Assembly: GCF_000317515.1 (NCBI RefSeq)
Contig: NC_019738.1
Span: forward strand, 5,420,001 to 5,484,000
Length of the DNA stretch: 64,000 nucleotides
Origin: Allocoleopsis franciscana PCC 7113
GTDB lineage: Bacteria; Cyanobacteriota; Cyanobacteriia; Cyanobacteriales; Coleofasciculaceae
Direction of reading: 5' to 3'
The notes under the pieces were generated by a model, which was not told the origin of the DNA, did not search any database, and saw only the letters and a list, made by a program, of their open reading frames with translations. Positions 9,131-12,712 of this stretch are shown here, one piece after another; the stretch's first letter is position 1; the number at the start of each line of letters is the position of its first letter. The position numbers and the translations under genes are program-made.

Positions 9131-9947
9131 CCACCTTTGGTCTACGTCAAATCTTGCAGCCGTCCCATAACTTGCCTAAACTTGTCACGAATCCCCTTGG
9201 GAAATCTTCACTATAAATGTCGTACCACTTCCCACTTTGCTCTCCACAGAAATTTGCCCTCTGTGAAGTTCCAAACACTTTTTAACGACAGCCAGTCCCA
9301 GCCCCGTGCCAACAATATTGCCAACATTTTTGCTGCGATAGAAAGGCTCATACAGCGCCTGTATGTCTTCTTTGGGAATTCCAATGCCTTCATCTTTGAC
9401 CTGAAAAATTACGGCTTGGGGGTCGCCACTTAAAATGAGATGAATATTGCCTCCTTCTGGCGAATACTTGATGGCATTCGAGAGCAAATTTCCCAGAATC
9501 GAATACAGTAACTTTTCATCTAGTAAGGCATGGGCACAGTCACCTTTGCTGACAAATTTAATCGAATGTCGTGGTTCGCTATCTAAGTTGATATCCTCTA
9601 CTAAATTTAGACAGAATGATTCTAAATCCAAAAGCTCTGGACGACACTCCAGCTTTCCGGCCTCGGCTCTAGTTAAGGTTAAGATATCTGTCAATAATTG
9701 GGTCATTAACCTAGCTGATGATTGAATGCGGTGCAGGTTCTTCTGTTTTTTATATTCACTCCAGGGTTGCTGGCTTTCTGCTAATATTTGTGATGAACCC
9801 AAAATCAAGCTTAAAGGCGTGCGAAATTCGTGAGAAACCATTGAAAAAAAGCGCAGTTTGAGGTCACTGAGTTCTTTTTCTTGCGCTAACTTATGCTGAT
9901 GAGCTGGGAGCATCCCAATTTTGCAAGAAGGCAAGAGAACGGGAAGT

Positions 9948-9974
9948 TTATTCGCGATTTTTACTCGCGAATAA
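9948..9974. repeat. IS left subterminal hairpin
   Basis: TTATTCGCGA and TCGCGAATAA form a 10-bp stem around a 7-nt loop TTTTTAC. With flanks (about 9943-9982) it is a direct repeat of 11612-11650 at the other end of the IS: the core 21 bp differ only in one loop base. Confidence 0.75.
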
Positions 9975-10034
9975 AGGCCGACTAGGCGGATGTTGCCCTA
10001 ACTGCGACAATTTAATTAGTTAGGGAGCCTCTTT

Positions 10035-11114
10035 ATGACAATGACACCAGAAGACAAAAAACTTTTAGCCGACCATATCAAGGCGATAGCTAAAATTCTC
10101 TATAAAAATACTCCACAAGAGAAAATTGAGACGTTAGAGGGGTATTGAAACAGCGGTGCGCGACCAAGTGCTAGAACATGTCAGCCCCCAAATAACCTTT
10201 TTTTTATCGGAGAAAAGACGGGAACAGAATCGGGACGCATCCGAACGATAAGAAGTTGTGTGGGTCGGATAAAAATCACTCAAAAACAAGCGTCACGTTT
10301 AGGAATTGAGCCGTATCGACGGTTAAGTCCTCTTCTGGAAAAATGCTGTTTATTACTTGCAGCAAATGAATCATTTCAAGATGCAGAGAATGACCTGAAA
10401 GTCTTGACCGGGGTAGAAGTAGGTCACAGCACTCATCATCGCCAAGCCCAGAAAGTAGAGCTATCGCCACCTAATATTAAACAAAAACTGACAGAAGTTT
10501 GTCTCGATGGTGGGAAAGTGCGTTTACGCTCACAGGAAAAAGGTAAACCCGCCTACTGGAAGGAGTATAAAACCGGACGACTACAAGGAATATATTACGG
10601 AGCCTTCTTTCAAGATAATTTTTCTCTAATTAATTGGGTGAACAGCCAAAACCTGGCTCGAACCATTTATTGCTTGGGTGATGGACACGATGGGGTGTGG
10701 AACCTATTTGCACAAATAGCCGACGACCAGACCCGACAAGAAATTCTTGACTGGTATCATTTGAAAGAGAACCTCTATAAAATTCAGGCATCGAAAAAGT
10801 TTTTAGAACAAATCGAAGCAGATTTGTGGCAAGGAGTGGTCGAAGAAGCGATTAGTAAACTCCGGAAAACTAACTATGTCGGGGCTACTAACTTTATAAG
10901 TTATCTACGTAAACATAGGCATCGCTTAGTCAATTATATGTACTTTCAAGCCGAACAATTAAGTTCGATTGCTTCGGGAGCTGTAGAGTCTGCGGTCAAA
11001 CAGATAGACAAGCGGCTACAAATAGTCGGCGCTCAATGGAAGTCCCAAAATTTACCGCAAATGCTGCAACTGCGGTGCGCTTATCTGAATCGACAGCTTG
11101 CTCCAAGCGCTTAA
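10035..11114 (+). pseudogene. ISKra4-like transposase gene with a compensating frameshift pair
   Basis: DDE-type transposase. The main frame (10260-11114 from GTG, open further upstream) encodes LSPLLEKCCLLLAANESF, the acidic CLDGGKVRLR and CLGDGHDGVWNLF regions, and GAVESAVKQIDKRLQ near the C-terminus, which I recognise as ISKra4-type. The 5' part starts at ATG 10035 (MTMTPEDKKLLADHIKAIAKIL) in the same frame but stops at TGA 10146-10148. Homology continues in another frame from GIETAVRDQVLEHVSPQI and returns at a run of eight T (10198-10205). So there is an extra G near 10140 and a missing T in the run. Unless recoded, the protein is N-terminally truncated. Confidence 0.85.
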
Positions 11115-11154
11115 AAAACCCAAAAACAGTATGAAAAGAAGCACGCTGCTTTTT

Positions 11155-11175
11155 TTCGCGAGTTACAATCGCGAA
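11155..11175. repeat. IS internal hairpin between transposase and passenger gene
   Basis: The stem TTCGCGA/TCGCGAA with 7-nt loop GTTACAA lies in the 79-bp gap between the two IS genes. The loop matches the outer hairpins better when read in reverse, so the passenger gene is flanked by hairpins in inverted orientation (this one and 11616-11640). It could also act as a transcription attenuator for the passenger gene. Confidence 0.7.
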
Positions 11176-11193
11176 TAATTAGGATTTATCTTT

Positions 11194-11604
11194 ATGCCTC
11201 GAAAGACTTCCAAGGATATTGAGCGAGATAAACTCGCTCGATTTGAGCGTATTAAAAAGGCGATAGCAGCGTTAGAAAAACAACAAAGACAAATATTAAA
11301 ACAGGGTGAGCTGGCTCCATCCGGGGCTTGGGTAGCGCGTTATCAAGTTCGGCAAAATAATAAGAAATATTGGTACTACAAATTACAAGTGCCGACTCCA
11401 TACTTCCCATGCGCGACCTCCGAAGAGTTGAGTAAATACAAGCATCTGGGGAAAGCTGGTACTACTGACCATATAGATGCTGTCATGTCTGTTTTTAGGC
11501 GTTCTGTTATCGATGAGATACAGAAGCTCATCCGTTCCCTAGATGATTGCTTGCTGGATATTACTTCTGGAGCCGAGCAGGAGGAAGAAAAACCGCAGGA
11601 TTGA
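11194..11604 (+). CDS. IS passenger protein of unknown function
   Basis: A 136-residue, basic N-terminal, soluble protein that I cannot assign to a family. Residues 4-40 (KTSKDIERDKLARFERIKKAIAALEKQQRQILKQ) predict a charged helix or coiled coil. Residues 44-90 contain APSGAWVARYQVRQNNKKYWYYKLQ, a compact aromatic beta-rich stretch reminiscent of small nucleic-acid-binding domains. The tail is acidic (GAEQEEEKPQD). It lies wholly inside the IS, 79 bp after the transposase and 12 bp before the right hairpin. A regulator, an accessory DNA-binding protein or an antitoxin-like cargo are all possible; none is shown by the sequence. Confidence 0.7.
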   Translation: MPRKTSKDIERDKLARFERIKKAIAALEKQQRQILKQGELAPSGAWVARYQVRQNNKKYWYYKLQVPTPYFPCATSEELSKYKHLGKAGTTDHIDAVMSVFRRSVIDEIQKLIRSLDDCLLDITSGAEQEEEKPQD

Positions 11605-11615
11605 ATCTCCCGAAG

Positions 11616-11640
11616 TATTCGCGATTATTACTCGCGAATA
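11616..11640. repeat. IS right subterminal hairpin
   Basis: TATTCGCGA and TCGCGAATA form a 9-bp stem around the loop TTATTAC. It starts 12 bp after the passenger gene and 39 bp inside the right terminal repeat, the same spacing and orientation as the left hairpin. Confidence 0.75.
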
Positions 11641-12369
11641 ATGGCTGTCCCTTTATTTTTGCACAATTGGGATGCTCCCGATGAGCTTCGGCATTTTGAC
11701 GTTTAACCATTTGTTGATAGAGTAATACATACACCCCAAAAAGAATTGCAAAACTCAAGAATGTGCCAATTTATTCTATCAGCATTCTGTGGCTAATACT
11801 AGTTTGAGACTTGCTGACTCTTTGTTCCAGTAATTGTTCTTCTTCGCGTTGCATTTGAGTAATAATGTGGCGAATCTCATACTGAAGTTTATTGTTTTTA
11901 TCGACTAGTGAAGTTTGAGCCGATATTGTTTATTTTCCTTGTTGGTAAAGGTTAATAGATTGCTCGAATAGAGCTAATCTTTGAGCAATTAGAGATTCGA
12001 GAATTGAGAGTCGTTGTTGTTGGCTAGGGCTATTGGCAAGCCGTTGCCGCAGTTGAGTGAGTTTGGGTTCAATACTTTGAATCGCTCTGTGATAACGCTC
12101 TAGCTCTGGCTCACTTCCATATAGAACGTAACCCCGTCGTCCGGATTCAGCATCGGTTAATGTTGCGAAGACATTGATCAGGTTATTGACTACTTTATGG
12201 GTATGTTCTAACTTCTCGGCGCTCTCCGTTAATTGAGTTGCATTGCGGTAGGAAACGAAGTTGACAAAACCCATCAGTAGTAATGCCAGACTCAACCCGA
12301 CTGCATTCAATTTTCCTTCGAGTGACCATTTCATGAAAAACTCAGTTGAGGAATTATGGCAAAAAGGAG

Positions 12370-12712
12370 ATGTTACTCCAGCAAGCAACCCTCAAACTAC
12401 TAGAAGCAGTTTTGGATTTCTTTGGCAGATTTGCAGGAGAAGACGCTAGAGGAGTATTTGCCGCAAAGGTGGCTGAAGAACGCTTTGGAGGTGGTGCGCG
12501 TTACTTCAGAACAGGAAAACGCCCTAGTGGAGTTGTTCAATAAGGAGTGGCTGTTTTTGGATGGCGTTGATGAGATTGCAGAGGGTTTCGTAGGGGTAGG
12601 GGCGCAAGGCCTTGCGCCCCTAAAGATGATCACATCTCAACTGGAAGGGTGGGTTGCAAAGGCACGGGTTGTGCTGAGTTGTCAGTTGAATGTTTGGGAA
12701 ACCAATCTATAG
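12370..12712 (+). pseudogene. NACHT-family NTPase fragment, frameshifted
   Basis: The fragment covers the segment after the P-loop (LLQQATLKLLEAV), then in another frame WISLADLQEKTLEEYLPQRWLKNALEVV, the Walker B region EWLFLDGVDEIAE and ITSQLEGWVAKARVVLSCQLNVWETNL, ending at TAG 12712. This order is typical of cyanobacterial NACHT proteins (STAND NTPases, some linked to anti-phage defence). Both the P-loop end and the whole C-terminal sensor are missing, and there is a frameshift near 12410. A 26-bp palindrome is inserted in frame after the Walker B motif. The 5' edge meets the start of the histidine-kinase pseudogene on the opposite strand. Confidence 0.75.
12597..12622. repeat. 26-bp perfect palindrome inserted in the NACHT remnant
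   Basis: TAGGGGCGCAAGG followed by its exact reverse complement. It adds in-frame residues (GAQGLAP) just after the Walker B motif, where related proteins are contiguous. Palindromes of this type are dispersed repeats in cyanobacteria. Confidence 0.65.

Follow-up and report, generated by a model that had tools for sequence, protein, structure and literature searches.

The ISMich2 group (p-MULT 4) of the ISKra4 family is, in the part of the 2014 survey covered here (PMC3942029), composed entirely of plain insertion sequences (ISs) with a −1 frame shift between their open reading frames (ORFs), and passenger genes are reported there in ISAzba1 and in four ISKra4 elements; passenger ORFs are also mentioned in the part covered of a review of the IS4 family (PMC2266710). 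The element examined in this work is located at positions 9906-11679 of a stretch of 64,000 nucleotides from the genome of Allocoleopsis franciscana PCC 7113 (the whole stretch that was analysed is hereafter referred to as the window). It resembles the members of this group in its family transposase, in the −1 frame shift over two ORFs and in its 8-bp target duplication, and it has GGGAGCATCCC-type ends in common with relatives that lack PAS (see below). Unlike the group as it is described there, it also contains in 10 of 10 copies a gene for a 136 aa passenger protein, for which we have coined the label PAS, together with three palindromes, and this module is likewise found in unrelated IS families.

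The nearest analogue of this module in form is the RAYT/REP system (REPtron), where, in the parts of the reports covered here, a small protein of a mobile element has inverted palindromes on both sides, and these coevolve with it (PMC2817692, PMC8266576). According to the same parts of these reports, RAYTs are HUH transposases that act on single-stranded REPs, which are often present in more than 100 dispersed copies (PMC2817692, PMC8266576). The PAS gene is also flanked by palindromes with which it coevolves; however, the transposase that PAS accompanies is a separate DDE enzyme, and the PAS palindromes are not dispersed in high copy number but are almost confined to ISs, where they lie inside both ends (39 of the 40 perfect sites in this genome map to IS or PAS loci or next to them). 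For an HUH (Y1) transposase domain, no Pfam or NCBIfam match was obtained with the window protein and no HUH motif was recognised by eye. TnpB of the IS200/IS605 and IS607 elements, an RNA-guided nuclease of about 400 aa, is another accessory gene product that is common to ISs with different transposases, but PAS is only 136 aa long and has palindromic sites at both ends of the element and upstream of its own gene. The pRiA4 Orf3-like passengers of ISAzba1 and the passenger ORFs of IS4 elements are, like PAS, IS passengers of unknown function, but in the parts of the sources covered no cis-sites shared across families are described for them (PMC3942029, PMC2266710). No description of the PAS module was found in the open-access literature, ISfinder, preprints and most subscription papers being outside this search. 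We rate a single protein-operator pair found across many DDE transposase families as a categorically new kind of arrangement, although accessory proteins of ISs are not in themselves a new idea. The reading that we favour, to which we assign a probability of roughly 0.6 based upon comparisons of sequences, is that PAS and its palindrome form a portable protein-operator module in which PAS would be a DNA-binding regulator of transposition.

A Conserved Palindromic Site in the Window Element

The original prediction for this locus, which was made from the DNA sequence alone, described three hairpins with the same stem, two of them subterminal and the third inverted before the passenger gene, and a direct repeat of about 38 bp around the outer two. 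The three sites (repeated stretches at 9949-9978, 11153-11182, and 11616-11645) are real, and they represent a single 23-bp palindrome, which occupies the two subterminal positions and recurs before the passenger gene (Table 1). However, in related elements only the arms are kept, and the two end sites have different loops; hence, for the conserved part, the distinction between direct and inverted orientation is meaningless, and the direct repeat is merely a loop resemblance between two palindromes. The suggestion of a compound element or nested repeat is also unsupported, because the arrangement of three sites is a conserved architecture that recurs in unrelated ISs. No Rfam match was found in the window.

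The genome (7.97 Mb) contains the pattern TTCGCG-N9-CGCGAA 40 times, in comparison to a single occurrence of a reversed control pattern. Of these occurrences, 30 correspond to three sites in each of the ten copies of the window element, two flank a paralogue of the passenger gene at C1:6886533, seven belong to a second IS, of 1688 bp and without PAS, in which they occur singly, and only one is elsewhere. The seven copies of the 1688-bp IS (loci L222-L227 and L229) have a transposase that by eye resembles NF041680, and their site is about 70 bp inside one end; cross-regulation of this element through its single site is possible. By itself the palindrome is not specific in GC-rich DNA, because none of 120 viral loci that were fetched by the palindrome alone encodes PAS. 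Short solo or miniature inverted-repeat (MITE) forms, which had been suggested to arise by inner deletion, were also considered and rejected. This genome does contain four MITE-like pieces (L458, L459, L460, and L462) that are about 111-166 bp long and have inverted repeats of the ISKra4 type, but they share only the inverted repeat with the element, their similarity being limited to the ends, and the palindrome was found in none of the four.

Geometry of the Sites in Other Elements

The sites were examined around 81 PAS sequences, which were retained from 96 distinct PAS-like rows (E<1e-30, model start ≤40). Palindromes of 6 bp starting with TTC showed a peak at a spacer of 9, which was observed upstream of 35 and downstream of 37 of the 81 PAS genes, versus 9 in the controls (eight control windows per locus). 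A relaxed 23-nt site was present upstream in 55/81, downstream in 60/80, and on both sides in 50/80 cases, versus 69 of 1236 control windows. The clades that lack the TTC core carry TTAGCG-N9-CGCTAA with identical geometry, and when both cores were admitted, a site was recognised upstream of 61 and downstream of 71 of the 81 PAS. In two IS4_3 elements (L062 and L293) the downstream site has a spacer of 11 rather than 9. The site finders were tuned while the data were in view, and the control-window spacing test and the newly fetched loci described below are least affected by this.

The 71 elements with a downstream site include 52 in which an inverted repeat was found, 17 without one and two with too little flanking sequence. 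A second end site was present in 41 of these 52 elements, versus 14 of 208 internal control windows. The two sites lie at correlated distances from their respective ends (r = 0.76), and in 31 of the 41 elements these agreed within 5 nt. These distances vary by family (22/22, 34/34, 49/49, and 93/95; 44/40 in the window element), and the same palindrome is thus found inside both ends of elements whose inverted repeats are unrelated.

For comparison, 57 loci with PAS-less relatives of these transposases were searched for TTC-type cores. They comprised 28 loci related to the window transposase (inverted repeats were found in 20 of them, and the elements are mostly 1165-1270 bp long) and 29 related to the IS4_3 transposase (22 with inverted repeats), giving 42 elements with an inverted repeat, and where closely related these repeats are similar to those of the PAS elements. 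In this search, sites at both ends were found in 0 of the 57 loci, and a few of them had one weak match close to one end (e.g., L354, L359, and L368). The end sites therefore go with PAS and not with the transposase.

Co-variation of PAS with the Palindrome

Residue 84 of PAS, which is part of the motif KY(H/Y)LGKAG, is His in proteins whose sites have the TTC core and Tyr in those with the TTA core. In a tree-trait set of 92 rows, 87 were labelled for the core (L277 and L291 as A and L300 as C, by hand from their sites), and the rule held in 87/87 of these rows (70 His/TTC and 17 Tyr/TTA). The His/Tyr switch has two independent origins on the PAS tree; the clades concerned consist of the second type of ISKra4 elements together with the IS4 element L277, and of most NF041680 elements. 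Locus L277 has an IS4_3 transposase like the TTC elements L080 and L270, yet its PAS falls within the Tyr84 clade, and all three of its sites have TTAGCG half-sites. A further 32 loci were fetched after the rule had been seen. Excluding L452, which has no PAS row, and L438, which was already in the set, 30 were usable and 20 had a recognised site (16 His and 4 Tyr). In these, His predicted TTC in 15 of 16 and Tyr predicted TTA in 4 of 4 cases; the locus counted as not agreeing (L453, His) has one half of the TTA type and one of the TTC type.

The relationship extends beyond this residue. For the 74 of 81 PAS with a site present and a length above 100 aa, the distance between PAS sequences predicted the distance between their sites (Mantel r = 0.54, 0/2000 permutations), and this was also the case between different transposase families (r = 0.39, 0/2000 permutations). 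Because one residue of PAS predicts one letter of the palindrome, PAS very probably reads the palindrome, and from these sequence patterns we strongly infer that it binds it. The earlier idea that the passenger could be the binding partner of the hairpins is thus strongly supported by the PAS-site covariation, the residue-84 rule and the newly fetched loci.

Double-stranded DNA or RNA as the Probable Ligand

It could also be envisaged that PAS binds the palindromes as RNA hairpins, causing a block of translation, attenuation or shielding from outside-in transcripts. The sites can indeed form hairpins, both of their arms change together, and they closely flank the PAS gene on either side besides occupying the two ends, where read-through transcripts enter the element. 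However, selection on an RNA stem is expected to spare G.U mismatches, and among 121 distinct sites G.U (20) was not commoner than A.C (18); a T.C mismatch has even become fixed in the upstream and downstream sites of the IS4_1 clade. Additionally, in elements with divergent genes hp1 is downstream of the transposase gene, past its 3′ end, but its distance from the end of the element is the same as that of hp3, and the sites in the window are not followed by a uridine tract. Recognition of double-stranded DNA is favoured over that of an RNA hairpin because G.U and A.C mismatches are equally common, and half-sites on double-stranded DNA are also favoured because the spacing is fixed and the end symmetry holds in divergent elements. 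The ligand of PAS would therefore be double-stranded DNA rather than RNA, and we consider action on RNA hairpins to be unlikely.

Transposase Families and History of the Module

The PAS gene adjoins transposases of at least eight families, as named by profile. The 81 distinct PAS are distributed among ISKra4 transposases of the window type (17), of a second type (7, e.g., L085) and of a divergent type (2; L310, below the cut-off), IS4 transposases of two types (NF033592 and NF033590; 10 with IS4_1 and 7 with IS4_3), an IS701-like group (11, below the cut-off), DUF6399 (10), NF041680 (6), IS1182 (2), and ISL3 (1, a fragment beside the own-genome paralogue); for 8 PAS no transposase was found. 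On the PAS tree, there are 17 changes of the transposase label, the minimum possible number being 11 and that in shuffles 56. Hence, PAS has been mostly inherited with its transposase, with several crossings between families. ISKra4 transposases alone accompany at least three separate PAS lineages. PAS and its sites would thus be a module that has moved between unrelated cyanobacterial IS families.

Such movement is also what would be seen if PAS and its palindromes were a selfish hitch-hiker with a mobility of its own, similar to RAYT/REP, which inserts into ISs without serving them; in addition, two of the sites bracket the PAS gene. In genome G375, a 549-bp stretch containing PAS, two sites and only the right end (L065) is common to a longer element at L063, which such a unit could also account for. 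However, the outer sites are placed at family-typical and end-symmetric distances within the inverted repeats of the host IS, no free PAS unit with a target duplication of its own was seen, and 30 of the 40 perfect sites in the A. franciscana genome are within the PAS element, unlike dispersed REPs. Of the alternatives considered, we regard this one as the least probable, and a module that serves the host IS remains our preferred interpretation.

The PAS Protein Family

The passenger had been described as a 136 aa gene of unknown function; the ORF was confirmed, and no database family matched it in searches of Pfam, NCBIfam and PHROGs, nor was anything below E 0.07 found among PDB sequences. 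A role as an anti-phage defence gene was rejected, as 0/20 PAS members match PADLOC models, and so was a phage origin, since no PAS relative was confirmed in any of the viral contigs searched. Within what was searched, relatives of PAS are limited to cyanobacteria, where they were detected in 37 of 388 genomes of the class by a single-sequence search and in 90 of 388 genomes of the order by a 20-row profile (E≤1e-8); 49 plasmid records also contain them. The closest relatives (67-76% identity) adjoin the same ISKra4-type transposase and those with 36-50% identity adjoin other transposases. Distant relatives (25-32% identity, many of about 200 aa), in which a first scan found no such sites, were excluded from the counts. 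The protein is under purifying selection, with dN/dS values of 0.05-0.13 to L023, L054, L055, and L024, for which synonymous sites are nearly saturated; the value of 0.59 with L265 is for a very close pair with few changes. Genome G468 contains a truncated PAS of 94 aa (L446) of the Tyr84 type, which is apparently frame-shifted and is repeated there in many copies, with nine such places listed.

Alternatively, PAS could be an enzyme for cutting or rearranging DNA at its palindromes, such as a resolvase-like protein or a cruciform nuclease, and serve in the resolution of cointegrates or the processing of transposition intermediates. The AT-rich loops and perfect arms of the sites favour extrusion, sites are present in the middle and at both ends, and L044 (1348-2214, + strand) encodes a fusion of a distant PAS-like domain with an HNH nuclease domain (PF13391). 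However, with Pfam, NCBIfam and PHROGs giving no match, no catalytic signature was recognised in PAS; its invariant residues are G, A, R, Y, W, L, and F, plus one H, which itself switches to Y. Further, three sites per element would be odd for a resolution site, and the product of deletion between sites was not found in the A. franciscana genome. This possibility appears slightly less likely to us than binding of RNA hairpins, and PAS is better viewed as a regulator that binds DNA.

Organization of the Insertion Sequence

The features of the window element are summarized in Table 1. The 1774-bp element with its 8-bp target duplication was borne out by the inverted repeats, by the duplicated GATGAGCT and by the ten copies present in the genome, which are nearly identical apart from single-base differences. 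The outer inverted repeats, which had been estimated at about 21 bp with one mismatch, do exist, but they measure 24 nt each with 22/24 positions complementary. Eight of the ten copies are 1773-1774 bp and the other two 1772 bp long, and target duplications of 8-9 bp are present in eight of them, L005 and L010 being without one. It had been proposed to compare copies with and without the passenger and, should all copies lack it or the hairpins be absent from related elements, to regard the arrangement as accidental. The opposite was observed: the 136 aa ORF is intact in all ten copies and both features are present in related elements.

Table 1. Coordinates of the features identified in the window element.
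Feature	Position	Strand	Remarks
Whole insertion sequence, ISKra4-type	9906..11679	+	1774 bp in this copy; inverted repeats, target duplication, ten genomic copies
Target-site duplication GATGAGCT, left copy	9898..9905	.	8 bp
Left terminal inverted repeat	9906..9929	+	24 nt, 92% complementary to 11656-11679
Palindromic site 1 (hp1)	9950..9972	.	44 nt inside left end; ATTCGCGA-N7-TCGCGAAT
orfA of transposase	10035..10148	+	37 aa in this copy; 71 aa in 8 of 9 other copies
Putative −1 slippery heptamer T_TTT_TTA, orfA to orfB (predicted)	10200..10206	+	Frame change orfA/orfB
orfB, main part of ISKra4-family transposase	10260..11114	+	NCBIfam NF033572
Palindromic site 2 (hp2)	11154..11176	.	Between transposase and passenger; 17 nt before passenger start
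PAS, 136 aa passenger	11194..11604	+	Family without database match; residue 84 is His
Palindromic site 3 (hp3)	11617..11639	.	40 nt inside right end
Right terminal inverted repeat	11656..11679	−	Pairs with left repeat
Target-site duplication GATGAGCT, right copy	11680..11687	.	8 bp

The product of orfB matches the ISKra4 equivalog model NF033572 of NCBIfam with an E-value of 5.1e-79 and 266 bits, which is above the cut-off of 205. In the consensus copy, as well as in L023 and L024, orfA and orfB are in −1-shifted frames, and from these frames a slippage between them is predicted. The T8 context of the slippery site was also found in L002, L056, and L265, and the same search was negative in 13 other loci. 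The link of the element to the ISKra4 family, as originally proposed, is supported by the profile match, and its probable place in the ISMich2 group by its frame shift and by its target duplication, 8 bp being the value for this group. In the window copy, orfA is shortened by a private extra G in the run at 10139-10142, because of which the transposase reading of this copy is broken; among the remaining nine copies only L010 also differs in the length of orfA. Private single-base changes at other places were noted in L007-L010. The insertion apparently splits a minus-strand gene for a sensor histidine kinase (9185-9934 and 11930-12388), for which reading of the ORF list by eye indicates a HisKA-like motif on one side and a CHASE3-like start on the other.

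Proposed Role of PAS and its Significance

Based upon these results, PAS would be a sequence-specific DNA-binding protein, probably a dimer, which recognises the 23-bp palindrome through half-sites of about 8 bp, e.g., [A/G]TTCGCGW, that are 7 bp apart. Each element would offer it one site inside both ends, at near-equal distances, and a third site upstream of the PAS gene, which falls between the two genes where PAS and transposase are divergent. When bound at both ends, PAS may modulate synapsis or the access of the transposase to the ends, as either a repressor or a cofactor of transposition, and at the internal site it may control its own expression and often also that of the transposase. 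Regulation of transposition, combined with autoregulation, is thus the most likely function of PAS.

Several observations weigh against this interpretation. The half-sites, with a distance of 15 bp from centre to centre, would be on approximately opposite faces of B-DNA, which is unusual for a simple dimer, and the sole structure model of PAS, for which the window and L023 sequences were used, is of unusably low quality (pLDDT 48). A recognised upstream site is missing for 20 of the 81 PAS and a downstream site for 10, and ten of the newly fetched PAS loci (5 His and 5 Tyr) also have no recognised site. In the IS701-like group the left end site is lacking in 8 of 9 elements and the lone candidate (L053) matches poorly; in addition, one NF041680-like IS of the A. 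franciscana genome carries a single site and no PAS. Lastly, the correlation between PAS and sites was weaker for family means (r = 0.44, 158/5000 permutations), and the switch at residue 84 happened only twice, because of which a formal independent-pairs test is powerless.

In its most general form, our proposal is that at least eight unrelated transposase families in cyanobacterial ISs share an exchangeable control system, which consists of PAS and the cognate 23-bp operator that it binds, one copy lying inside each end and another in front of the PAS gene, and which follows the rule that His84 corresponds to C and Tyr84 to A at position 4 of the half-site; we give this wider proposal an even chance of being correct. 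If it is true, the specificity of transposon regulation would become readable and predictable, and cross-talk between the ISs of a genome, including PAS-less ISs with a site, would become testable. For this family of about 130 aa, which matched none of the databases searched, the work also provides a probable ligand, a constant geometry of the sites and a rule that links a residue to a base, and it explains a conserved small ORF that is annotated as hypothetical in several cyanobacterial ISs. The regulators of transposition in bacteria are mostly known IS by IS, and a shared module with symmetric sites inside unrelated ends would constitute a general layer of IS control in this IS-rich phylum.

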